Source: Aquanectria penicillioides
Taxonomy: Eukaryota; Ascomycota; Sordariomycetes; Hypocreales; Nectriaceae
DNA length: 64,000 nt
Assembly (NCBI GenBank): GCA_003415625.1
Contig: PYIU01000002.1
Location: 6,448,001 to 6,512,000, forward strand
Reading direction: 5' to 3'
Part shown: positions 2,776-64,000 of the stretch, one piece after another
Position numbering within the stretch: position 1 is the first letter of the stretch
How the letters are laid out: each line of letters starts with the position of its first letter
Notes under the pieces: model-generated
Told to the model about the DNA's origin: nothing
Databases searched by the model: none
The model's input: only the letters and a program-made list of their open reading frames with translations
Position numbers and translations under genes: made by a program

Positions 2776-5432
2776 ATGGCGCGCAACAAGAAGGACGACC
2801 CCGTCGACCCGTCATCCACCACTTCTGCCCCGGATCTCCAGATCCTCGGCGATGAGGTCACTCTCCAGCCCAGCGGCTACGTCGAGCCGCCCGCCAAGGA
2901 AGCTCCTGAGGGCAAGGAGGAGGCATTGATGGACAAGTTTGCTTCGTTTCGCTCAGAGCCTTTCCAGTAACGTCTTCCCTCTTCTTTGCGCACTTTTGCC
3001 CCCCAATCCATTCATCATGTTCGCTGACAAGACAATCGACTCCAGATTCCTCCGTGAGGTATCCCTCTATGTCTCTGGCCAGGGATGGCGAGCCTACGAC
3101 CACGTCATTGGCCAGTCTGTCTTTTACTCAGGATTCTCAGAAAACATGAAGACGATGGTCATGTCTGCGCCTCTGCTCCAGCAGCGCATAACCCAGCTCG
3201 CTGAGCATCGGGTCGCCGTTGAAGAAAGGGAAGGCACCCTCTCTCGTAATAGCAGCGACTACGTCGCCAAGCGGACTCAGCGGCTCAATGCTATCGAGGA
3301 AGGCCTGCAGGAACTCGCCGAGAAGATGACGGATGATATGATCTGCAAGATGGAAAGCAAGACCTTCATTCGTGGCGCATATTATCTTGTCACCCAGTTA
3401 TTGACGAGAGCTTACCACCAGGGAATCCACGTCTCTAGTGAAGAGGTCCTGAGGTTACGAAAGGTGGCTGAGGCCGCCGCCAAAAAGAAGCAAAGTATCG
3501 TATTCTTGCCGAGCCATCGATCACATGTCGATTACGTATCTCTCCAACTCATCTGCTACAGGTTGGGCCTGACGCTGCCTGTCGTTGTATCAGGAGACAA
3601 CTTAAACTTCCCGGTAGTGGGCAACTTTCTTCAACATGCTGGCGCAATGTGGATTCGAAGGGCCTTTGGAGATGATGCACTCTACACCGCCCTAGTGCAG
3701 TCTTACATTGATACTCTCCTGCAGGAGGGGTACAACTTTGAATGTTTTATTGAAGGCGGTCGCTCCCGTACAGGAAAGCTCCTCCCTCCAAAGTTCGGAA
3801 TCCTAAGCTTCGTCCTCGACAGCATTCTGTCTGGCAGGGTCGAGGATACCATCATCTGCCCGGTGAGCACGCAGTATGACAAAGTCATCGAGACTGAAGG
3901 ATACGTCACTGAGCTTTTGGGAATGCCGAAAAAGAAGGAAAACCTGGTCGACTTTCTAACGGGTGGCTCATCCGTCTTATCTTTAAAACTCGGACGAGTA
4001 GACGTCCGATTCCATGAACCATGGAGTTTGAGAAAGTTTATCGATGAACAGCTCTCTAAGCTGCCCAGAGTCCCTGCAGGTCTCGACACTGAGCATCATC
4101 GACCAGAAGTCCGGGCTGTGCGCGAGAAAATCCTGCGCACGCTGGGCTACAAGGTGCTGAGTGACATTAATGACGTATCTGTCGTGATGCCCACCGCGCT
4201 CATTGGCACTGTCCTCTTGACGCTGCGTGGTCGGGGCGTCGGCAAGCAGGAGCTCAACCGTCGGGTCTCATGGCTCACTGAACGTGTTCGCGCCAAAGGT
4301 GGCCGAGTTGCCCATTTCGGTAACGCACCTCTTTCTGAGATTATCGACCGAGGTCTTGAGGTCCTTGGGAAGGATCTAGTTGGTGTGATTGAAGGGCTGG
4401 CAGAGCCTACCTACTATGCTGTTGACCGCTTCCAGCTCTCCTTTTATCGCAATATGACGATCCATCTCTTCATTTATGAGGCTCTTGTGAGCGTGGCCAT
4501 GTACACAAAGGTGAAGCAAGGCGGTGCCCCTCACATGCAAGATATTGAATTTGAGGAACTCAAACTTCAAGTTTTGTTCTTATCTTCGCTCTTCCGTGGC
4601 GAATTCATCTTCTCTAGCGAGGGTCTCGATATCAATTTGGACAAAACATTGCACGGGCTGGAGGCGGATAACGTTGTCCGTCTCGACCGCGACGAGCAAG
4701 GCAAAATTGTTATGATTGGACTGTCAGACCAGGAACGAAAGGCAGGAAGAGAAAATTACGATTTTTACTGCTTCCTCATCTGGCCTTTTATCGAATCAGC
4801 CTGGCTGGCATCTGTGTCGCTCATGGGCTTGACACCTCCACTTGGACAGAACGGGGAGATTTGGGTTGAGCAAGGCAAGGCTCACAACAATGCCCAATTG
4901 GTAAGGACTCGGTGATTCTATTCATGAAACCGCAAATCTAACATTCAATGCTATATAGCTAGGTAAAACTCTGTACCATCAGGGCGACCTGTCCTACTTT
5001 GAGGCGGTTAACAAAGAAACACTCAAAAACTCGTACTTCCGATTCGAGCAAGATCAGCTTCTCCATGTTGTCAAATCCAAGGATCCCAAGATTCCACCTC
5101 GCCTTCAAATAGACGCATCATGGCGACCATTGCGCGACCCGCAGACAGGTGCTCTACTAGCCGAAGGGAAGCTTTGGGATTTTGCAGAGAAGATTGCTAA
5201 ATCCCGTCGCGAGGGCAAGAATCGTCGCGACGGCGCAACAGTCAGCAGCCGGGTGCTGCGTTTGACAGATGAACTTGGCCAGAGGCTCTTTGATGAAACG
5301 GCCGAGGCTGAACGAAGCGGCAAGGGCAAGGTTCCGAGCCGCCTAAGCCGGGAAGAAAGAGAAGCACTAGGGAAGAGTGTAAGGGAAGCGAAGAGGAAGA
5401 GAGAAGCAATGGGAGGGCGAGCACGTCTGTGA
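2776..5432 (+). CDS. glycerol-3-phosphate/dihydroxyacetone-phosphate acyltransferase (GNPAT/PlsB type)
   Basis: Exons 2776-2966, 3046-4900 and 4959-5432 give 839 residues; the introns are 79 and 58 nt. The enzyme acylates position 1 of glycerol-3-phosphate or DHAP, the first step of glycerolipid or ether-lipid synthesis. The acyltransferase block starts with the HX4D motif HRSHVD (about residue 222), followed by the phosphate-binding block EGGRSRTGK (about residue 301) and ICPVSTQYDKV. Splicing at 2966/3046 joins EPFQ to FLREVSLYVSGQGWRAYD, a run typical of the fungal family, which supports that junction. The C-terminal 150 residues are highly charged with many Lys/Arg. The length fits fungal PlsB-like proteins. 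Whether it acts in peroxisomes, ER or mitochondria is not visible; no PTS1 is present (the C-terminus is RARL). Confidence 0.9.
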
Positions 5433-40144: not shown

Positions 40145-41617
40145 ATGAAGACGTCAATGATTTATCTCACTATGCTCCTCGGCGCAGTCATCGCCGCGCC
40201 GACCGGAGCTGACACTATACGAGTGAGTTTTAAATATCAGAGGATACAAGGTGAAAGCACCACCCTTTTTCTGTCTTGTTTCAGAATTCTTCCGAAACCA
40301 GCTGATGACATGAACTTTTGATGATCAGAAGCCCGACAAGTCCGACAGCGCGCTAGATGAATGCGTGAGTACCATCTCCTCCATATTCCGCTTCCTAATG
40401 TTGAGATAACTAAGCCTATTGCATTGCTTCAGACTTTCTAGTGCGCACATAGACTTTGGGTTTGCCTTCTGGAGGGGAAAAGCGAGCATGAATGCGTAAG
40501 TAGTTACCCTGCATATAACAACGTGACTTTCAAGGTTCTGGCGCGGAATATGTTCGCAGGATGTATGTTACTCCTTTCAAAAACAAATTAATTGACAGGA
40601 ATGCAATTGATAGCGATTTTCAGGGAGTAAGTAGCCTCAGTCACATGATTGGCAATAACAAGACGGATACTAATTCGTTGTTCTTTTCGGACTGATAGCC
40701 TGTAAGTGATATTTGAACGGAATATCACAAAGATCATGTCATTTATCAGGAAACCAATCTCACTATGGCTACTTACACAGATTGTAAGTTTATGTTCCCC
40801 AATTCCCCACCATTCTACCAGTTTACTACTAATACTCGTCCTGGGCGGTAAGAGTCCCGTAACTTACAGGAGATGACGACGATAAAACGAGCAGCATGTT
40901 AACACATCCGAATATAGCAAGGAAGAAACCTTTCTGGATTTTTCAACCGTAATATCAGACATGTGCTAATGTTAAAATGCGTGACAGTGTGTAAGTGACT
41001 TCATGCATCCATCATTATAATGTTTGCTACCTCTACAGCCTACTAATACGACGGGCATAACAGCGTGTAGGTTGGCCAATTTGCACTGAAATGCCTGACT
41101 CATTTCTAGATTAAATATCTTTTTTTTCTGGGTAGAAAGTAAGCTTGCACCTAGCTCTGCAGATTGTTAACCTGCTGCTCACTAGCTATGCTGATGCTAT
41201 GCTAATGCTACGACTCGTTCAGGAACGGGTGAGTACATTTTGATCGTTTCAGGATCCTCTTACCACCGCATCGATATGCCAACAGAATTGGTCACCTATA
41301 GTGCGTGGGATGAATCACTGACTAATTGATGCACCGTGCTACTCCGTTAGCTAATAGAATACTGGCAGCTTCTGCGACTAGCGGAAAGCGTTCTGCGAAA
41401 ATACAGATTGTTGAAGCTGGGAAGCAAGGATGAGGGTAGGTCATTGAGCATTTTACGCATTCACACATTGCATAATCGGGCGGCTAACCTAAGGAATAGT
41501 AGTGGCAAATCATCGTGGGATGCGGTATTCTCGCTGCAGGAGAAGTGGCCGGAAACAAGATGGTATGGTGGTCAAAGTAAATTTGGATACTCCAGAAATC
41601 AAGAAGGCGCTGAGTAA
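40145..41617 (+). CDS. candidate micro-exon gene for a small secreted Cys-containing peptide
   Basis: Exon 1 (40145-40222) encodes a signal peptide, MKTSMIYLTMLLGAVIAA, then PTGADTIR. Exon 2 (40329-40364) is KPDKSDSALDEC and exon 3 (40442-40495) CAHRLWVCLLEGKSEHEC. Next come exons of just three bases, each between AG and a near-consensus donor: GAT 40560, GGA 40624, CCT 40699, ATT 40781, possibly CAT 40895 (weak donor), TGT 40988, CGT 41064, AAA 41136; then GAACGG 41223-41228 and 15 nt at 41286-41300. Introns are 57-111 nt and most have CTAAT or CTGAC branch sites. All exons are multiples of three and all introns phase 0, and the last exon (from 41351) is open in that phase to 41617. The 3' end is uncertain: a further intron from 41436 is possible. 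Family not recognised. The single codons read D-G-P-I-(H)-C-R-K. Confidence 0.45.
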
Positions 41618-41987
41618 AATCAAGATCTATCCAATATGTGAATGATATGTGGTCCTTTGTCGAGTTGACTGCCATACAACGTAGCAAATCCCCAGACGTG
41701 ACATTGAAATTCCTCATGTTTCGTCCTCGATCAATAATATCGGCCATTTTCATACCCCCGCTTCTATCGAGGTTTCTAGAAACATTGTGACCCTTGAGAG
41801 ATTCAAAATAAAATTACATGAAAGGAAAAGCATGGTTATTCCGTAATCTCGTTGACCCAAAATTTCCCGCTCTGTACTATCGATCATTCCATATCACACA
41901 TCCCAATCTGCCAGTCAGGACAGAGAAACACCATACCTATATATCTGTGAAATGCCCCACATGCACAGCCATTAACGCAAGTAGTTC
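41618..41987. other. intergenic
   Basis: Spacer between the micro-exon locus and the 3' end of the regulator gene. A continuation of the micro-exon gene to about 41648 is possible in another frame. Nothing else is seen. Confidence 0.4.
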
Positions 41988-46673: not shown

Positions 46674-47186
46674 TGCGAGATTGTTTAGCGGAGCCTTGTT
46701 TGAATAGGGTATCAGTAGTGAGGTACCAGGGATTCAAACTACAGAGAGATGTCTAAAATCTTGCCTCATATTAACCTAATAGCGATCCCATAGCCTCTGG
46801 AACTACCTGGCCGATTCGAACACCGTCAATGGGGACCCCGCAAAACGTGAAGCTACCCCGGATTTGGTGCCCCGACGCCGGAGCCGACGCGCCGGAATTC
46901 CTCACCGTCCCGCACCACATTTAGGAAATATTATTCACGGATTTTAATAGACTGTATAAGTCCCCATGATCATGTAGGAGCGTAACAAAGCCTATCGGAA
47001 GTCGTGCGTGGCCCGGTGTCGGCACAACCTGGCCGTCGGAATCCGTTAGAGTAGAGATCGGTAGATGAATCTCCGTTCGAAGAAGTAGTGTTGAGTTTCA
47101 ACTTGCAGAAGAAAATAATAGAAAACGAGGGGATCCATTTGAGATCCTATGCTAGTTCAAGTAATACACTCGTAACTATTTTCGTG
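46674..47186. promoter_or_regulatory. divergent promoter of dehydrogenase and transketolase-like genes
   Basis: This 513 nt lies between divergent starts at 46673 (-) and 47187 (+). It includes CCCCGG/CCCCGC-type GC-rich motifs (46830-46880) of the kind bound by fungal zinc-finger regulators, but no specific site can be assigned. Co-regulation of the two genes is an inference from layout. Confidence 0.4.
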
Positions 47187-49449
47187 ATGCCTTCTATTAC
47201 TGCCTCTGAAGCCAATGGTGCTACCCTACACCAGAAGGGTCTAGGCAAAACCAAGGGGTGGAGAGAACAGCTCGATGCGAATGACTACGCTGTGCTTGCG
47301 CTACGAAACCTTGTTTTCGATCTTTGCAATCAGAATGGAGGCGGTCATGGTGGTTCAGCCATCGGAATGGCCGCCATTGGAGTTGCGTTGTGGAAACATG
47401 TGATGCGATACAATCCTTCCAACCCTGATTGGTTTGATCGTGATCGATTTGTGCTTTCAAATGGTAGGTGCACCACGAGGCAAGACGAAGAGTCGATCAG
47501 TATCTCACGAATCAATGTCTGACAGGCCATACCTCAATGTTCCTCTACGCCCTCAATCACCTTACCGGCTTCGACCTATGGACCATGGACGAGCTCAAGG
47601 GCTATGGAAGCGCAAAGACGAACGGATACAAGACAATCTGCCATTCTCATCCCGAAATTGAGATTCCTGGCGTAGAGGTCACCACCGGGCCACTTGGTCA
47701 GGGTGTTGCGAATGCCGTGGGACTAGCCATTGCATCAAAGAACTTGGGGGCGCGATACAATCGCTCGGGTTTCGATATTGTACAATCGCGCATCTATTGC
47801 ATGGTTGGAGACGGATGCTTAATGGAGGGTGTCGCCCTCGAAGCAATCTCTTTGGCAGGAAGCCTTCAACTAGACAACTTGGTAGTCATCTACGACAACA
47901 ACCAAGTGACTTGCGATGGTCCTCTCGACTGGATAAACACCGAGGACGCGAATGCAAAGATGCAGGCATCGGGCTGGCACGTTATTGATGTTCCCGATGG
48001 AAGCTACGACGTTCAGGCAGTGGTATCTGCCTTGAACCTGGCAAAGACTGTGAAGCAACAGCCTGTTTTCATCAACGTGCGAACAATCATTGGTTTGGGA
48101 ACTAAAGTTGCTGGAACCTTCAAGGCCCACCATGGTGCGTTTGACAAGGACAGCATCGACGAATCGAAGCGGCTCGCAGGCCAGGATCCTTCAGTGACAC
48201 ATGTCGTCCCTGAAGAGTCTCTTGCGTATTTTAGAGAGCGCAAAGTCCATGGAGAGTCCCTCGAAACGGCCTGGAACGCCTTGGTCAGCACTTACGGCGA
48301 TGTCCACCCAGAGACCGCCGAGTCGTTGGAGCGAGCTCGCAAGGGCGACAACGGAACCGAATGGCTGGATATTCTCAACCGTGTCGACAGCTCGGAATTT
48401 AAGGGACTGGCAACGAGAGAAGTCAATGGCGAATTGATCGAGAAGATCTGGAAAATCCACCCAGGCATGTGTGGAGGCGGCGCTGACTTGGTCAACTCTA
48501 ACAAGGTTGCCTACACCGACTCTGATGTCTTCCACCCCTCAGTTAGCTACGCTGGACGATATATTCGGTATGGAATCCGAGAGCATGCCATGGCTGCCAT
48601 CTCGAATGGCATCGCTGCCTACAACCAAGGCACCTTTTTGCCCATTACTGCGACTTTCCTCATATTTTATCTCTACGTTTGTTCTCCCGCCCCCGTCCCT
48701 CACGAATGTAAATAAGAAACGCAACTAACATGCTTCTTCCTATTTAGGCTGCCCCGGGGGTTAGGATGGGCGCTCTCAGTCACTTGCCCGTGATCCACTT
48801 TGCGACCCACGACTCTTTTGCTGAGGGACAGAATGGACCAACGCATCAAGCTGTGGAAGTTGATTCGCTCTATCGGGCCATGCCCAACCTCACATACATC
48901 CGACCTTGCGACGCGGAGGAAACAATTGGCGCTTGGATCCTTGCGCTCTCCAAGAAGACTGGTCCCACTCTGCTGTCCCTCGGTAGAGATCCGGTTGGGC
49001 CAGTCCCGTCCACAAGCCGATCTGGGGTCGCCAGAGGAGCATATGTAGTCAAGGATGAGCCGCATGCCAAGCTTACCCTCGCCAGCTGCGGCACTAATCT
49101 GCACTATGCAGTGGCTGCTGCCGAAGCTCTTACTGCAGACGGCATCGCCACTCGTGTCGTGAGCTGCCCGAGCTTCGAGCACTTTGACCAACAGGAGAAG
49201 TCGTACCGTGATAGTGTCTTCCCCCGCGATGGAACGCCGATTGTTAGTGTGGAGGAGTACATTGCCACAACTTGGGCGAGATATGTCACTGCCAGCATTG
49301 GAATGACCAGCTACGGCTATTCTGCTTCCAACCCGAGCAACTATGATAGGTTTGGACTGGATGCAAAGGGAGTTGTTCGCAAGGTCAAGAAGTACATCGA
49401 GGAGCTTGGTGGTGAGAATGCGAGAATTGCAGGCTGGCAGCAACTCTGA
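47187..49449 (+). CDS. transketolase-family enzyme, dihydroxyacetone-synthase-like
   Basis: Exons 47187-47463, 47526-48676 and 48748-49449 give 709 residues. The enzyme transfers a two-carbon ketol unit with thiamine diphosphate. Seen are GGGHGGSAIGMA, PGVEVTTGPLGQGVANAVG, the ThDP-binding GDGCLMEGVALE ... NLVVIYDNN, the catalytic-Glu segment YGIREHAMAAISNGIA, and the sugar-phosphate site HFATHDSFAEGQNGPTHQ. Intron 2 has an unusual GTTTGT donor but restores LYAAPGVRMGAL. The frame is open 33 codons further upstream (ATG 47088), but the conserved part begins at the chosen Met. The C-terminus (GWQQL) is not a canonical PTS1. It is a paralogue of the core transketolase, of the class annotated as dihydroxyacetone synthase in fungi; formaldehyde use is not shown. 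Confidence 0.85.
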
Positions 49450-50151: not shown

Positions 50152-51951
50152 ATGCCTGAGCACAAGAAGGAGTTGAACGTCATCATCATTGGGGCGGGTC
50201 CGGCTGGAATCTCCCTAGCCTACCGCCTCAAGCATGAGTTGGGCTTTGAAGACTTCACCATCTATGAGAAGCTTGATGGTGTTGGTGGAACATGGCGGAC
50301 CAACACCTACCCGGGATGGTGAGTGAAGGACGTGCCCTTCTTCGTGGAGATTGCTAATGAATGATTCAGCGGCTGTGATCTGAAGTCGCATCTTTACTCG
50401 TTTAGCTTCAACCCGAACCCTTACTGGTCAAAGGAGCTTTGCGAGCAGCCCGAAATCCTACAATGTGAGTATCCAAGGGAATAGTGTCAATGAATGATAA
50501 GAAGAGGTTGCTGACATTGACTCGAAGACATGGAAGATACCGTCGACAAGTTTGACTTGCGCAAGCACGTGCACCCTGCGGTCGAGTGTGTCGGAGCCAA
50601 ATGGAACAGCGAGGAATCTAAATGGGAGGTTCAGCTGAAGGACCTCAAGACCAGTATCGAGTATACCAGGAAGGCCTCGGTCTTCGTCTCCGCTGTGGGC
50701 GCCATCTCGTACCCTCGAGATGTCAAGTTTGCGGGAATGGAGGACTTCCAGGGTGCCATGTTCCATACCGCACGATGGGATCACAGCTACGACTACAAGG
50801 GCAAGCGAATCGCTGTTATCGGCAACGGATGCAGTGCGGCGCAAGTCGTCCCGGCCGTCGCCAAGGATGCGGCCTTTGTCAAACAGTATGCTCGCAGTGG
50901 ACAATGGTTCCACGCTCGGCCCAACCGCAACTACAGCGAGCTCGACAAATTCCTGTTCCGTTGGATGCCGTTCTATCAGCGGTGGCTTCGCCTCAAGATC
51001 TTCCTCGATGCCGACGAGGAGACGACGACCTATTTCCCCACCCCCAAGGGGCTGAAGATGCGGTCCGAGGTCGAAGAGGAGTCCAAGAAGTACATTCGCT
51101 CCAAGGTGTCGGAGAAGTATAGCAAGGCAATCATCCCCAAGTTCCCTCTGGGATGCAAGCGCCGCATCTTCGACCCGGGCTACCTGGACAGCTTGAACCT
51201 GCCCAACGTTGAGCTTTTGGCTGAGGGAATCCAGGAAATCACCGAGACTGGCATCGTCAGTAGCTCTGGAATCGAGGATGACTTTGACCTTATTGTGCTG
51301 GCGACCGGCTTCCAGGTCACGCAGTTCCTGACCCCCATGCACATTGTCGGCTCGACTGGAGTTTCTCTCCACGATCAGTGGAAGGAATGTCGCGGTGCCC
51401 AGGCCTATCTTGGCACTCATGTCCACAACTTCCCCAACCTGGCCATCCTTTTTGGCCCCAACACGTTCCCCGCCAACAACTCGGCTCTCTTCGCCTGCGA
51501 GACCCAGGCCGAGTACGCTATAAAGTCGCTCATCAAGCCTCTGATCGACCGCAAGGCCATCGTCATCGAGGTCAAGCAGTCCGCCGAGGACCGCGAGACC
51601 AACGAGATCCACCGTGAGCTGCGAAACACCGTGTTTGCGGGAGACTGCTCCAACTGGTACATTGGCGATTATGGCCGCAATGCCGCGTCGTGGCCGGGCT
51701 TCGCACGAGGATATTGGCTCGCGACCATGGTGCCCGACTGGTCGGCATTCAACATGACGGGCAAGAACTCTCTGTGGCCCGTCTACACCGCGTCGCGCCA
51801 CCTGAAGATGATGTCGATCTGCACCAAGATTTTCCTCGTTGCCTGTGCCATCGGGCTCGTTCGGGGGAGGCAGTCCACGCTAGAGTATGCGATTTCTGCC
51901 GCTTATGGACTGAAGGATGGTGTCCTGTCTCGACTGTGGGGTTCGGCTTGA
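50152..51951 (+). CDS. Baeyer-Villiger-type flavin monooxygenase
   Basis: Exons 50152-50318, 50370-50464 and 50528-51951 give 561 residues. The FAD-binding GxGxxG is at the N-terminus (IIIGAGPAGISLAYRL). After splicing comes the conserved TNTYPGCGCDLKSHLYS run. The BVMO fingerprint FxGxxxHxxxWD is present as FQGAMFHTARWDHS, followed by the NADP-binding fold GKRIAVIGNGCSAAQ and DLIVLATGF. These enzymes insert oxygen next to a ketone or hydroxylate steroids, alkaloids or polyketides. A hydrophobic helix near the C-terminus (KIFLVACAIGLVRG) suggests membrane anchoring. It follows the transketolase-like gene on the same strand, and cluster membership is possible. The large minus-strand frame opposite is a shadow. 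Confidence 0.9.
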
Positions 51952-56607: not shown

Positions 56608-58018
56608 ATGGCGTCTGTTGAAGATCACAGCGCATTCCTCAGGCTTCCTGCAGAGGTTCGTAGGCTCATTTATGAGCAAGTGCTGGCTCCAGAGCCGTTT
56701 ACTTTCGGCGACCGGAGCAAGAGACACGAGTTGGTCAGGAATATAAATGTGATCAATCTCGTGCTCAAAGGCACTGGGCCAAGACAGGAGGGTGCATCTC
56801 CTGGGGCGGCTTCTGGGAACAACCCCTGGGTCCTCGCCCGGGTCTGTCATCAGATCAGGGCTGAAACAGCCACGATGCTTGACAAGATCAACTTTGATCA
56901 TGTACACTTCTCCTTCCGCAATTTCACGAGCCAGGACATGCGAGCCTGGGGCGAGAAAATGGGAGTAGAGCGTGTTGCCAAGATGCGTCGCTGGGGTATA
57001 AGCGGCTGGCATCGGTGCAAACGTTCCTACGCCGGACCTTCTCAGAACATGGATGACAGTGACCCGTAAGTTGAGATTGTCTTGATCAAGGAGATGGAGA
57101 TCGGCAGCTTGCTGACATTGTCACGATGCCCTCTTCAGGAAGTGCTATCGAGACGTGGAATTCGACTGGAATTTGACGTCATGGGACGAAACCGTCCCGT
57201 CCGATGGGTTCGGATTTAAACTTGGGTCAGAAGATGTCACATTCAAGTTTGGCATCGACCGCGATTATGGCGACGGTGTGGCTCGTGATATCTGCTACGA
57301 CACCTGTGTCGCAGCCTTCGACCAAGGCATCTTTGAAGCTTTTTCAAGCTTGAGGTCCATAGGGTACGGATACTGTCCTGGCGCCCCATATTGTATAGCC
57401 TATTCACCATCACCCAGGTATTCGCCAACATCACCAATGTCTCCCAACTTTTCCCCAACGTCTCCGAGCTACTCTCCAGTGTCTCCCAACTATTCTCCGG
57501 CATCTCCAGGCCGTGAAGGATACTCTCCGACAGCCCTTGGTGATGACTCGGCGGCTCCGGATGAAGACGCAGAGGTTCCAAATGAGAACCTCGAGTTCCT
57601 AATTGACGACCCGAGGCCATACTCTCCTACCTATGGGCCGACTCCAGGCGGGGAACCGGTGGTTTACTCCCCTAACGCCCTATATTCCCCAAGCCATCCA
57701 GCCCCGTCTCCAAATTATTCCCCAAGCCACCCACCTCTCTCTTCACATTATTCCCCTAGGTCTCCACCCATGGCAGGATGGTCCCCAAGGACTCCAGATG
57801 GTGACATAAATGTTATAGATGAGGATGGAAATGATCATCCTTCACCAGATGGGGAAGAACAGCCCGCGAAGCCTACCACGTCAGAAAATGGCGAACACGG
57901 GCATTTTGTGACTGTTGGCTTCCTCGTCGGATTGGTGCAGGCCCTCTACCATATCGACCTCTATCCAACCGGCAGTTGTGTCGCGCATGATGAGCCATGG
58001 GGGTTGGTCTGGTATTGA
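56608..58018 (+). CDS. 2EXR-type protein with RNA polymerase II CTD-like repeats
   Basis: Exons 56608-57065 and 57139-58018 give 445 residues. The N-terminus FLRLPAEVRRLIYEQVLAPE is the helical start of the fungal 2EXR domain; NNPWVLARVCHQIRAE is its second conserved helix. From about residue 238 the protein becomes a Tyr-Ser-Pro array: YSPTSP, NFSPTSPSYSPVSP, NYSPASP, YSPTALG, then after an acidic spacer YSPTYGP, VYSPN, LYSPSHP, NYSPSHP, HYSPRSPP. This closely imitates the YSPTSPS heptads of the RNA polymerase II large-subunit CTD, although this is not RPB1: there is no polymerase domain and the length is wrong. The C-terminus is a separate acidic and hydrophobic segment. The role is unknown; binding of CTD-recognising proteins is a reasonable hypothesis. 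Confidence 0.75.
57397..57786 (+). repeat. coding YSPxSPx heptad-like repeat region
   Basis: This DNA encodes about 12-14 imperfect heptads related to YSPTSPS. Some units are contiguous (about 57400-57540) and later ones are separated by 8-15 residues. Codons vary between units (TCT, TCA, TCC; CCA, CCG), so this is not a recent DNA-level slippage array and the peptide pattern seems to be maintained by selection. Confidence 0.7.
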
Positions 58019-58211: not shown

Positions 58212-61200
58212 TCATCCTAAGCCCCAATCTAGGGATTCATGATGTCTTTGTACAGCCAACTCGGGCGGTGTCAAGCCATCGCGATTTTTGCTGTCCTTCT
58301 GCCCCTCGCCGGGTTTCAGCAAAATGTCCAGAGTAATTTGATCCCCTGATTGTGCAGCAAAGTGAAGCGCAGACCAACCATCCTCATCTTGTTTATTCAC
58401 ATCTGCTCCAACGTCGACCAATACCTTGACAACATCCTTGTGACCCCAAAGGATAGCTCTATGTAAAGGTGTCTGCTTCCTCAAAAAGTCCTGGGTATTG
58501 GGGTCCGCTCTCTTGCGGAGGAGCTTGAGAACGCTGCCGAGCCGATCATCGTCTGTGAGTGATCCCTCAGAGGCTATGATGTGCAGCGGCGACAACCCTT
58601 CGTCATCTTGAACGTTGACGTTGTTAGTCCACTCTATGAGGATGCTCGTTGTTTCTTTATGCAATGCCGAACCGATGGCTAGTTCTGTGATTGCCCAGTG
58701 AAGGGCCGACTTATTGTTCTTGTCCAAAATTGCCGGATCCGCGTTGTATTTTCGCAGAAACTTTACAAACTCTTCGTCCCCACGGTAAGATGCTATGTGC
58801 AGCGCCGTCTTGCCGCCCTTGTCCTGGAAGTTCAAATTGGCTCCTTTTTCGTGCAGCGCCCATGCAATCGAGGCATCGCCCCTCTCTGCTGTGATGTGTA
58901 GTGCAGTGCGGCCCTTTTTGTCTCGCGCATTCGGGTTCGTCTCAATTGCGGATTTTTCCAGAAGAACCCAGGTAACAGAAAAGCTGCCTCGTTGCGTTGC
59001 GATGTGCAATGGGGTTCTATCCTCATTGTCCGCCACGTTCGGATCTATCGCCTGATGTTCTAGTAGAGCCCTCATAACAGAGGCGTCATCGTTCATTGCG
59101 CTCAAGTATAGCGCTGTTCTGCCTTCATTATCTCGCAAATTTGGGTCCGTTTCGGGCCTCTCAAGGAGTATTCGGACCACAGAAAGGTCGCCTTCCATTG
59201 CAGCGATATGTAATGGGGTCCTTCCCTCGTGATCTCGGGCGTTTGGGTTCGCTCTGTTTTCCAGGAGGAGCCAGAAAAGCGTCGAATGCCTAATCTTCAT
59301 TCTCCGAACAGCGGCGTGCAGTGGGGAATATCCGTGTTCATCAGGAAGATCCACGTCAATTCTTTTCCTATTCTGCAACAATACCCATGCGACATTCCCT
59401 TGACCGTAATCGATGGCACAACGTAGAGGCGTGTAGCCCTCATCGGTTGTGACGTTGGGGTCGGCATTTCTATCCATAAGCTGCTGCACCATGGACGCGT
59501 GCCCTTGCTGGGATGCCCAACATAAGATCGACCAAGACCCCTTGTGAGTTCTGACGGTATGTTTTGCCCCTTTCCAGACGAGATATTTCGCAATTCGTAC
59601 GTGGTTGTGCACAGCTGCGTCTCTGAGTGCAGTCCATTCGCCCTCACCCTGAATATCAATGTCAGCTCCGCACTTTACGAGTAATTTGACTGTCGATTCG
59701 TATCCGTTATGCGCGGCAATTCTGAGAGCAGTGTAGCAACTATTATCAATAATGTTCAGGTCGAGATCCTTCTTGTGCTTTAGAAGAGCGATGAGGGTGT
59801 CTGTATGCTGACTCTTGACAATCTTGTGCAAGGCAGTCCTTCCATCCTTATCCACTGCATTGATATCTGCACCTCCATTGATCAATGCCTCCAGAATTTG
59901 GGTGTGGCCATGGGATGCTGCCCAGTGTAACGCGGTTTCTCCTTTCAATGTCCGCGCATCAATAATGACCGCTTTATTGATGAGGAAATCCACAAGCGGT
60001 GCAGAGTTGAAATATGTCGCAAAGTGTAAACTCGACACATTTTTCTCGAACATGACTGAATTATCCGACAATACCTGCAACACAGATAATACCTTTCCTG
60101 TGTCTGAAAAAAATGCCCAAGCCCGGTAATAGAGAAGTTCGTTTGGTTCAGCTTGGAGATGGAGATGCCAATTCTCGGCTGCGTACCTGAGAAACGGGTA
60201 TTCGTCCAATCTCTCGTCCAGCTCTTCTTTTGTTTCGCATGTTCGAGAAAGTTTGGTCAGGGATATATAAGCAAGACACTTCTCGGCTAATATTGATTGA
60301 GACCGAGGTATGATCCCTTGTTCGTCGATCCGATCCACGAGATACTTTTTTGCAGTGGAGTGCACGAGCTGTAGCTCGGACGTTTCGCGATTGACGATGA
60401 TGATCCCAGCGCAAGCCGAAGTTATGTCGTTTTCGTTTACAAAACGCCCTTTCAGGTCATCTAAACAGGAATCGCCCTCTGTAATGGCCAGAGCGTGACG
60501 AAATTCCGCAACAGTCAAGGGCCTTGTTGCATGGAGTGCCCAGGACAAAACGGCAGCGGCTAGCATTCTGCGGTTTTTGTCCTGGCTTCTAATTCTGTTG
60601 ACCGAGGCTTCATAAATAATATCAGGGCGTCCTGGAAGATTGGAAAGTCGCTGTCGCAGCCCATCTACTGTGAACTCTTGCACAAGAAGCTCCATGTGAA
60701 GATGCGCTAGAAGAAACCTATTTCAAATCTGTATCAGCCGTCCAATCCTTTGAAGATGAATATTAAATCAACCAACTCACATCCCTTGAGCGTTTCTGAT
60801 TAAAGTATTGACCACGGCTTCGGGAGAGAACTGGTATGCATCACCCATACCCACCATCTTTTTGAATGCTTCACAACCACTCAGTCGGCTGTTGATGTAA
60901 AGCCTAAGATCACCCTCATTGGCCGAAAATTCAATCGAATCGTCTGCGTTGATTTCATCTTGAAGAACCCAGTCGGTCCATGAAAAGAATAGGATATTGA
61001 CATGCGATGGGAGTTGAGACAGGGCACACAAAAACTCTTCTCTGGTCCTTTGACCGGAATTGTTTGGGCAGCCGTCCAACGCGTCCACAACGATGAAAAC
61101 TTTACTAAATTTTTTAATCTCACATTTAAGAAGGCGTATGAGATCATTAAGGTTCGGTGTTGCTTCTTTAATCGTGTACTCTTGGTACGCCTTTCTGGTA

Positions 61201-61795
61201 TGACTGGATATGGAGTCCTGGCCATCAACTAGTTGTGCTAATAGGCCAGCCAACAATCTCGTTACAATTGTTGACTCTTCGACTTTTTCGAAGTCGCGAT
61301 CGTCGAAATAAACGTATATACAAGCAAAAAGTCCATTTTCGTTGGTGAATTGCTTTTTGAGATGCTCAATCACAATCGATCTGCTGTGTGTCAACAATGC
61401 AGGGAGGGAGGGGGTGGCAGCAAGCTCAACATGGCTGAGCAAAGGGTTGACCTACGCGAGAATGGTCTTGCCAGCACCAGCTGTGATGTTGTGAATACTC
61501 GGAAATTCCCCTTCTCAGTTGATGTCGATACTTACGGATTCCATGGCACCATAGCTTTGAGCCCACGCGATCCCTCCAGGTAACGAACTTTTGACTCTTG
61601 AGTAGCCAAGTTCCCGTCCCAGGCACTTTGTTGGCTATTTCGGTGTACTTCGTCTGCCTGTGAACGAAAGGGAAGGTGGAAATTGTGTATAGCCATTTTA
61701 GAATCGTAGATCCCTCGTCATATCCTATATCAGTCAATATCACGTCTCAATGCTAATAATGTTCGAAAATAGCGCACCTGGCGAGTTCATCATCC
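58212..61795 (-). CDS. NACHT NLR with ankyrin repeats
   Basis: Exons 61795-61778, 61724-61536, 61480-61456, 61380-60781 and 60717-58212, in phase, give about 1111 residues from Met 61793. The NACHT ATPase has EGSTILKWLY, PGTGTWLLKSQKF, the Walker A loop built by splicing (CHGI + PGAGKTILA), and the Walker B VFIVVDALDGCP. The C-terminal half (about 560 residues) is an ankyrin array of at least 15 units of the TALHWAASHGHTQILEALI type, ending WGLG. NLRs of this class sense non-self or damage and trigger death by oligomerising. The N-terminus is unsettled: a further upstream exon (about 61957-61865, phase 1) encodes GNQDGINQSLIALSGSQVT, a Gly/Gln/Asn motif similar to the end of the neighbouring SesB protein, but no start codon for it was found. 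It is on the same strand as its likely partner. Confidence 0.8.
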
Positions 61796-63003: not shown

Positions 63004-64000
63004 CTAGCCGAACGATAGGTCTCCGTTAATAGTTTGGCAGCCATTCACGATACTCGACTGTACAACGTTGCCCCAAACCGTTATTCCTCCTGTTGAATTC
63101 CCGTATGTTGGTGGCTCCGCAGATGGTTGTGAAACGATTGCATCAGCATGGCCGTGCGACCCGTCTTGATAAGAACGAATGGCGTTTATCCATCTGAGGA
63201 GTTCGCTAACGAGGCTCACAAACCCCGGCTCGCTCTCCCTGGAGAACTTTACCATGTCTCGATGGTTTTTGTGGATTCCTATCGCTGGATACGAAGGCAG
63301 AATGGCAGAGGACTTTGGTACAACCTGCAGTGCCGTTAGTGATATGGAGTCCTCGGCCAACAAAGCATGCCTCAGAATGCATGAATGGGAGCAATTCGGG
63401 GCCGTTAGGGAGTCCATGTGTCTTACCTCACCAAATCTAGGTACCGGCAGTTCTTCATAGAAGCAAGTAATGAAGATTTCGGGATATCCTTCCTGCGTCC
63501 TTGATCTGAGCATAGAATGGAAGTCGCTCTGGATGCGAGCTAGAACCTCGGAATCCCTGTACAGAACCTTGGCTATTCGCGTATTCACTTGTCGAGCAAA
63601 AGCTACCCATTTAACAAGCCGGTCCATTGATACTGCCAATTCAGTTCCCGAATGGGGTGTGCCAAAGAAGGCAATACCTCGCGTGCATCGCACAATCTGT
63701 TTCAAGTGCTCTTCAGCGCTTGCTCTTGATGCCACCAACGCCTATGTTTTCAAGGATCATGAGTCAGCTATTTCGTCAATTTTCTGCCAAGATATGGGTT
63801 GGAAGGATTTACATCTTCACACACAAGACCCCCGAGGCTGTGCGCCACAAATATAATGGGCCTGTCAATCTGCATTATCACAATCAGCACTCCTGCAAGT
63901 AAAGGTGGAGTCGCCATTATCATTACGGTCTTTTCATTCTCTCGATGTGTCGCTAACGCCGAGAGCAGGTTCCTTGCGTGGTCACCAATCCTGTTATTAG
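63004..64000 (-). CDS. SesB-like alpha/beta hydrolase effector (5'-partial at window edge)
   Basis: The gene continues beyond the right edge. Visible exons are 64000-63927 (partial), 63869-63813, 63741-63427 and 63324-63004. Splicing gives RIGDHARNLLSALATHREN, RPIIFVAHSLGGLVCED (nucleophile Ser in the HSLGG elbow), then IVRCTRGIAFFGTPHSGTELA, and VVPKSSAILPSYPAIGIHKN with the catalytic-type His. This is the SesB/DUF676-type lipase-esterase used as N-terminal or stand-alone effector in fungal NLR systems. The intron 63426-63325 (102 nt, GTAAGA donor, CACTAAC branch) is stop-free and a multiple of three. The last 40 residues are a Gly/Asn/Gln-rich tail (GGITVWGNVVQSSI ... VNGCQTINGDLSFG) unlike a hydrolase, resembling amyloid signalling motifs. 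It lies about 1.2 kb upstream of the NLR body, same strand. Confidence 0.8.

Follow-up and report, generated by a model that had tools for sequence, protein, structure and literature searches.

Can a fungal gene be spliced through a series of exons of a single codon each? The question is raised by a stretch of the plus strand in a 64,000-nucleotide window (the whole stretch of DNA analysed here), where the initial annotation had seen a signal peptide followed by seven such triplets, each between an acceptor and a donor. We read the 1501 nt from 40145 to 41645 directly, listing acceptors and donors, and found that the triplets GAT, GGA, CCT, ATT, TGT, CGT and AAA do each lie exactly between a YAG and a GT donor, and that the flanking exons of 78, 36, 54 and 6 nt are present as claimed. 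The host genome (53.76 Mb in 13 contigs) was the source of genome-wide correction, and the background was made up of the remainder of the window and 20 stretches of 10 kb drawn at random from that genome, taken on both strands (525 kb of strand-sequence).

The host most likely groups with the Nectriaceae, judging from the matches of a conserved protein encoded at 3017-4915 of the window, which shares 91% identity with proteins of Thelonectria olida and Neonectria magnoliae, 90% with a Mariannaea protein and 85-87% with Fusarium proteins; a taxonomy look-up places Thelonectria, Neonectria and Fusarium in this family. Elsewhere in the window, a transketolase-like gene at 47055-49449 (plus strand), the C-terminal part of which was confirmed by Pfam, is adjoined by a flavin monooxygenase at 50521-51951. 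An open frame at 57116-58018 (plus strand) has many YSPTSPS-like heptads that by eye resemble the tail of RNA polymerase II, and by eye it does not look like a polymerase gene. On the minus strand, 58212-61451 and 63004-63741 encode a protein with ankyrin repeats, in which Pfam matches a winged-helix domain (58215-60722); the frames upstream of it look by eye like a NACHT ATPase and the start of an alpha/beta-hydrolase, and together the ankyrin-repeat, NACHT-like and hydrolase-like frames resemble a fungal NLR-type receptor.

Clustering of the three-base motif

The motif YAG-NNN-GTRNGY occurs seven times on the plus strand of the 1501-nt region, compared to 0.106 expected from the 37 sites in the 525 kb of background. 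The Poisson probability of such a cluster is 2.7e-11, or 1.9e-6 genome-wide and 5.8e-5 when the choice among 30 exon lengths is also corrected for, in agreement with the original view that a chance origin is very unlikely. A version of the motif with GTRWGY, the donor consensus given for Aspergillus nidulans (PMC12403724), is found six times against 0.063 expected (P = 8e-11). The region was also shuffled 5000 times with its dinucleotides preserved; no shuffle reached seven sites, the largest number being three. It is the clustering of the motif that is unusual and not its total in the window, which is ordinary (18 sites against 10.55 expected, a count reached in 6 of 100 shuffles). Among other exon lengths from 0 to 30 nt, the next best is 28 nt, with three sites against 0.08 expected (P = 8e-5), and two of these three use donors of the triplets. 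The triplet donors themselves are GTATGT, GTAAGT (four times), GTAGGT and GTAAGC; all seven belong to a set of strong types (P = 3.5e-4, for a set picked after the donors had been viewed), and the presence of GTAAGT in four of seven has a probability of 5.7e-4.

The cluster can also be viewed as a chain. With introns of up to 215 nt, ten phase-neutral micro-exons can be linked in the region, while the longest such chain in 640 overlapping 1.5-kb background windows has four and was seen once. If no intron may exceed 130 nt, the region's chain shrinks to five, because a 204-nt intron interrupts it. Exons of lengths not divisible by three form long chains here too (seven, against a background maximum of five in 2 of 640 windows), indicating a general richness of the region in donors. 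The splice signals at 40496-41229 form a cluster that is very unlikely to have arisen by chance.

Predicted exons and their splice signals

The predicted gene lies on the plus strand and begins with a 78-nt exon (40145-40222) whose start codon is in the context CACAATG, a good match to the start consensus. It encodes MKTSMIYLTMLLGAVIAAPTGADTIR, with a hydrophobic N terminus that by eye resembles a signal peptide and is in frame with the chain, as the initial annotation had it; export is thus a by-eye prediction. The codon usage of this exon is that of the genome (P = 0.006 versus shuffles). Exon 2 (40329-40364, 36 nt, phase 0; KPDKSDSALDEC) has a branch site, GCTGAT, 24 nt upstream of its acceptor and also fits the codon usage of the genome (P = 0.036 versus shuffles); a second AG 3 nt downstream makes a 33-nt form possible. 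Exon 3 (40442-40495, 54 nt, phase 0; CAHRLWVCLLEGKSEHEC) is preceded by a CTRAY but not a RYTRAY branch site, and its codon usage has no significance versus shuffles; use of an acceptor 9 nt upstream (start at 40433) would lead to an in-frame stop. The ends of exons 2 and 3 are near-identical over 15 bases (40357-40371 and 40488-40502, 93%; ATGAATGC then GT[G/A]AGTA), which is perhaps the trace of an old exon duplication.

The one-codon exons are predicted to follow at intervals. GAT (Asp, 40560-40562) lies between a CAG acceptor and the donor GTATGT and has no consensus branch site; GGA (Gly, 40624-40626; CAG, GTAAGT) has ATTAAT or ATTGAT as its branch site; CCT (Pro, 40699-40701; TAG, GTAAGT) has ACTAAT 26 nt upstream; and ATT (Ile, 40781-40783; CAG, GTAAGT) again has no consensus branch site. 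The longest intron of the chain (40784-40987, 204 nt) comes next. An eighth triplet, CAT, had been placed within it at 40895, but its donor is GTTAAC and no GTRNGY donor is found anywhere inside this intron, so that this exon is weakly supported and the claim is not confirmed; the intron may nonetheless contain a further hidden exon. Beyond it are TGT (Cys, 40988-40990; CAG, GTAAGT), with GCTAAT 19 nt upstream, CGT (Arg, 41064-41066; CAG, GTAGGT), with ACTAAT 18 nt upstream, and AAA (Lys, 41136-41138; GTAAGC), whose TAG acceptor follows a T tract and is separated from the branch site CTGAC by another TAG. The last small exon is GAACGG (Glu-Arg, 41223-41228, 6 nt; CAG, GTGAGT), with GCTGAT and GCTAAT as branch sites. 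A 15-nt exon had also been claimed; its sole candidate, 41286-41300, has the donor GTGCGT and no RYTRAY branch site upstream, and it too is weakly supported and not confirmed.

The 3' end of the gene is ambiguous. In model A, the last exon spans 41351-41617 (267 nt) in the phase of the chain, with 88 open codons and TAA at 41615-41617; a branch site precedes its acceptor, which we picked among several. This frame is open in only 0.25% of mononucleotide shuffles, while its codon usage, like that of the triplets taken together, is no better than that of shuffles. In model B, removal of 41436-41499 (GTAGGT...GGCTAAC...TAG) leads to an alternative last exon at 41500-41645, ending in TGA. Model A (exons of 78, 36, 54, seven times 3, 6 and 267 nt) would give a protein of 153 residues with five cysteines, and model B one of 141 residues with seven. 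As originally proposed, all exons of model A, every internal one included, are multiples of three, in phase 0, and the final exon is open. Its donors conform to GTRNGY in 11 of 11 cases and to GTRWGY in 10 of 11, and its introns are mostly 61-84 nt long, the exceptions being that of 204 nt and the last, of 122 nt. Retention of a single intron would bring an early stop for 10 of the 11 introns. The intron at 41139-41222 (84 nt) has a length divisible by three and contains no in-frame stop, and its retention would add 28 residues. Any one of the ten internal exons of model A can be skipped with the frame kept; given that every small exon has a length divisible by three, inclusion and skipping cannot be told apart by the frame.

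The frame does favour the triplets over longer exons. Four triplet acceptors have another AG 25-26 nt upstream, which would give exons of 28 or 29 nt, and a fifth has one 29 nt upstream, which would give an exon of 32 nt. Combining the alternative acceptors at these five triplets with the two 3' ends yields 64 splice paths, only two of which are open to the last codon, both with all seven triplets. The other 62, including every path with a 28-, 29- or 32-nt exon, are closed, and longer exons starting at the upstream acceptors were rejected.

Branch sites were sought as CTRAY 8-45 nt upstream of each acceptor. This motif is found upstream of four of the seven triplet acceptors, compared to 9.4% of background YAGs (P = 0.002), and precedes 1 of the 37 background three-base sites. 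Over all acceptors the count is 9 of 12 (P = 1e-7), a value inflated by the five non-triplet acceptors, which were partly our choice. Within the region, CTRAY also precedes 10 of 38 other YAGs; relative to this local rate, the triplets are not significant (four of seven, P = 0.08) and the full set of acceptors has a P of 6e-4 (9 of 12), making the branch-site support weak by this measure. A search for RYTRAY gave no match for the acceptors of GAT, ATT, AAA and exon 3. The earlier statement that most triplets have a CTAAT or CTGAC branch site was roughly right: CTRAY accounts for four of the seven, and five have either CTRAY or RYTRAY. Neither of two home-made splice-site models is used as evidence here: the first, with only five training introns, placed 11 of the 12 introns of the gene below all five, and the second, with 52 training introns, many of them with poor donors, placed the 12 at the 12th to 96th percentile.

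Relatives, copy number and comparison with known small exons

The spliced 141-residue product of model B, which was the query for homologues, has no match at E <= 10 in a collection of 5.8 billion proteins that includes the Nectriaceae (31 candidates were returned by the search), and the frame of exon 1 read into its intron (40145-40318) gave no candidate in the same collection. The one Pfam match of the model B product scores 12.1 bits, far under the cut-off of 22.5. Within its genome the region is single-copy both by DNA (E <= 1, in a search that omits simple repeats) and by protein, where the four matches are all to the gene itself. Such an absence of relatives would fit a spurious gene as well as a fast-evolving orphan. 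The 12 introns show little likeness to each other (mean pairwise z of 0.13, with z > 3 in 1 of 66 pairs), and the alignment of intron units is poor at the ends. With no kinship among the intron sequences, an origin of the chain by recent tandem duplication is rejected. Introner-type repeated introns were rejected as well, the introns being unalike within the gene and only the region itself being found in the genome at E <= 1. The repeats in the region amount to three short direct families and four inverted pairs.

The closest structural parallel is with the micro-exon genes (MEGs) of flatworms. A rule used for a tapeworm genome demands a minimum of seven exons, half or more of them shorter than 70 nt and divisible by three, and four or more of these in succession (PMC7653826); the predicted model has 12 exons, 10 of which qualify, in one run of 10. 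The same source notes that exon skipping can make variants of such proteins that differ in one residue, and that exons for a single amino acid are found throughout biology (PMC7653826). The likeness to the MEGs of Schistosoma, Echinococcus and Hymenolepis lies in the many consecutive small exons divisible by three and in a frame that tolerates skipping. The gene described here differs in being fungal, single-copy and with no sequence relation found in the protein collection or Pfam, and the likeness is structural and known from sequence prediction. Flatworm MEGs also mix exon sizes, whereas the fungal chain would consist of serial one-codon exons. Many tiny internal exons of one phase are likewise seen in the bicycle genes of aphids, where almost all are in phase 2 (PMC9168663). 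Membership of that family was rejected: all 10 internal exons are in phase 0, and the published classifier gives -35.06 against a cut-off of 0.72.

Ultra-small exons have precedents nearer to the host. The Fusarium CYP621A gene has a read-supported exon of 1 nt (PMC12940212), which likewise is flanked by introns and belongs to a member of the same family, the Nectriaceae, implying that such fungi can splice tiny exons; it is a lone exon in a conserved enzyme, however, and not a chain in an orphan gene. The Xlr2 gene of Trichoderma contains a fungal microexon of 20 nt that is alternatively included (PMC11121469), but this is one exon and is not phase-neutral. Outside the fungi, human RPS24 has consecutive micro-exons of 3, 18 and 22 bp (PMC12686416), comparable in that one is of 3 bp and different in that there are three, of unequal size, in a ribosomal protein gene. 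The stwintrons of ascomycetes resemble the chain in having adjacent introns that need successive removal under intron definition. In a stwintron, an internal intron splits the outer donor between G1 and U2 (PMC12403724), whereas each triplet acceptor here precedes three whole exon bases and then a complete GT donor, and a [D1,2] stwintron was rejected. The excerpts of the open-access full-text literature that we consulted contain no series of 3-nt exons in fungi, the fungal micro-exons in them being single, and thus do not contradict the initial annotation, which knew of no such gene.

Proposed splicing of the chain and its alternatives

We consider it likely, from the sequence, that the locus is a real single-copy orphan gene for a small, probably secreted protein, the middle of which would be split by nine introns into seven one-codon exons and one two-codon exon that are joined stepwise. 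A fungal micro-exon gene of an extreme kind is the most probable reading of these predictions, and a small secreted cysteine-containing protein is a natural guess at its product. Ascomycetes pair splice sites across introns (PMC12403724). Under such intron definition, every intron of the chain would be a unit of recognition in itself, its donor bound by U1 and its branch site and acceptor by U2/U2AF; as one triplet is too small for both complexes at once, neighbouring introns would have to be removed one after another. Each predicted triplet would supply one residue (D, G, P, I, C, R and K, followed by E and R from the six-base exon), and these residues would link an N-terminal part that contains cysteine to the product of the C-terminal exon. 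A length of three would be explained by both ends being used as exon ends in frame, three being the smallest phase-neutral length, and unused sites would give little reason for a length of exactly three in seven cases. Taken whole, the initial reading is partly supported, the support being for its structural part.

It is possible, but unlikely, that the chain is instead one long intron, from 40496 to 41222 or 41350, in which the triplets act as splicing relays and their bases are a by-product. No triplet is CAG or AAG, as U1 optimisation would have it, and the frame stays open when all the triplets are skipped, both of which agree with such a role. An intron of 727-855 nt would be cut into steps of mostly 61-84 nt (one of 204), which suits fungi, where introns are short; the median in F. 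graminearum, for instance, is 56 nt (cited in PMC12940212). Relays of this type are nevertheless predicted to leave three bases each in the mRNA, and so would amount to one-codon exons anyway. Classical ratchets, moreover, are zero-length AG|GT sites. None of these is present in the region on either strand and no triplet starts with GT, on which grounds a recursive splicing ratchet was rejected.

Still less probable is a conventional short gene made up of exons 1-3 with read-through of the donor at 40496, the chain then being a set of unused splice-like sites. Such a gene could be accommodated by the 31 codons that are open beyond exon 3, up to TAA at 40589-40591, but the codon usage of this read-through is no better than that of shuffles, and both the cluster and the donor bias would be left unexplained. 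We regard a chance arrangement as very improbable. The region was chosen by a reader out of much sequence, the motif count of the whole window is inside the shuffle range, and other donor-acceptor chains are abundant here too, all of which count in favour of chance; against it stand the 5.8e-5 that remains after correction for genome and length, the failure of all 5000 local shuffles to match the region, and the fact that both open splice paths out of 64 include every triplet. A non-coding multi-intron transcript, for example a snoRNA host gene with tiny exons, is the least probable alternative, for although many introns and short exons are in keeping with a host gene, the two Rfam matches obtained up to E 5 are far under their gathering scores (the best has 20.5 against 37.6 bits, E 2.5), introns of mostly 61-84 nt are short for a guest RNA, and the phase-neutral exons and signal-peptide-like exon point to coding.

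Returning to the micro-exon gene, a bolder form of this reading, in which a secreted protein has its central segment built residue by residue, with each residue freely included or skipped, appears doubtful to us. If true, one gene with eight units that can each be skipped independently could yield as many as 256 variants, the finest possible grain of splicing diversity. Very small exons are known to escape gene finders (PMC12940212), and other genes of this kind could therefore be overlooked. If the chain is spliced as proposed, the design of the micro-exon gene, which takes its name from flatworms and has a likeness in aphids, would be extended to fungi. Seven serial one-codon exons would then also put the spliceosome's handling of adjacent splice sites to an extreme test, in organisms whose unit of recognition is believed to be the intron rather than the exon.
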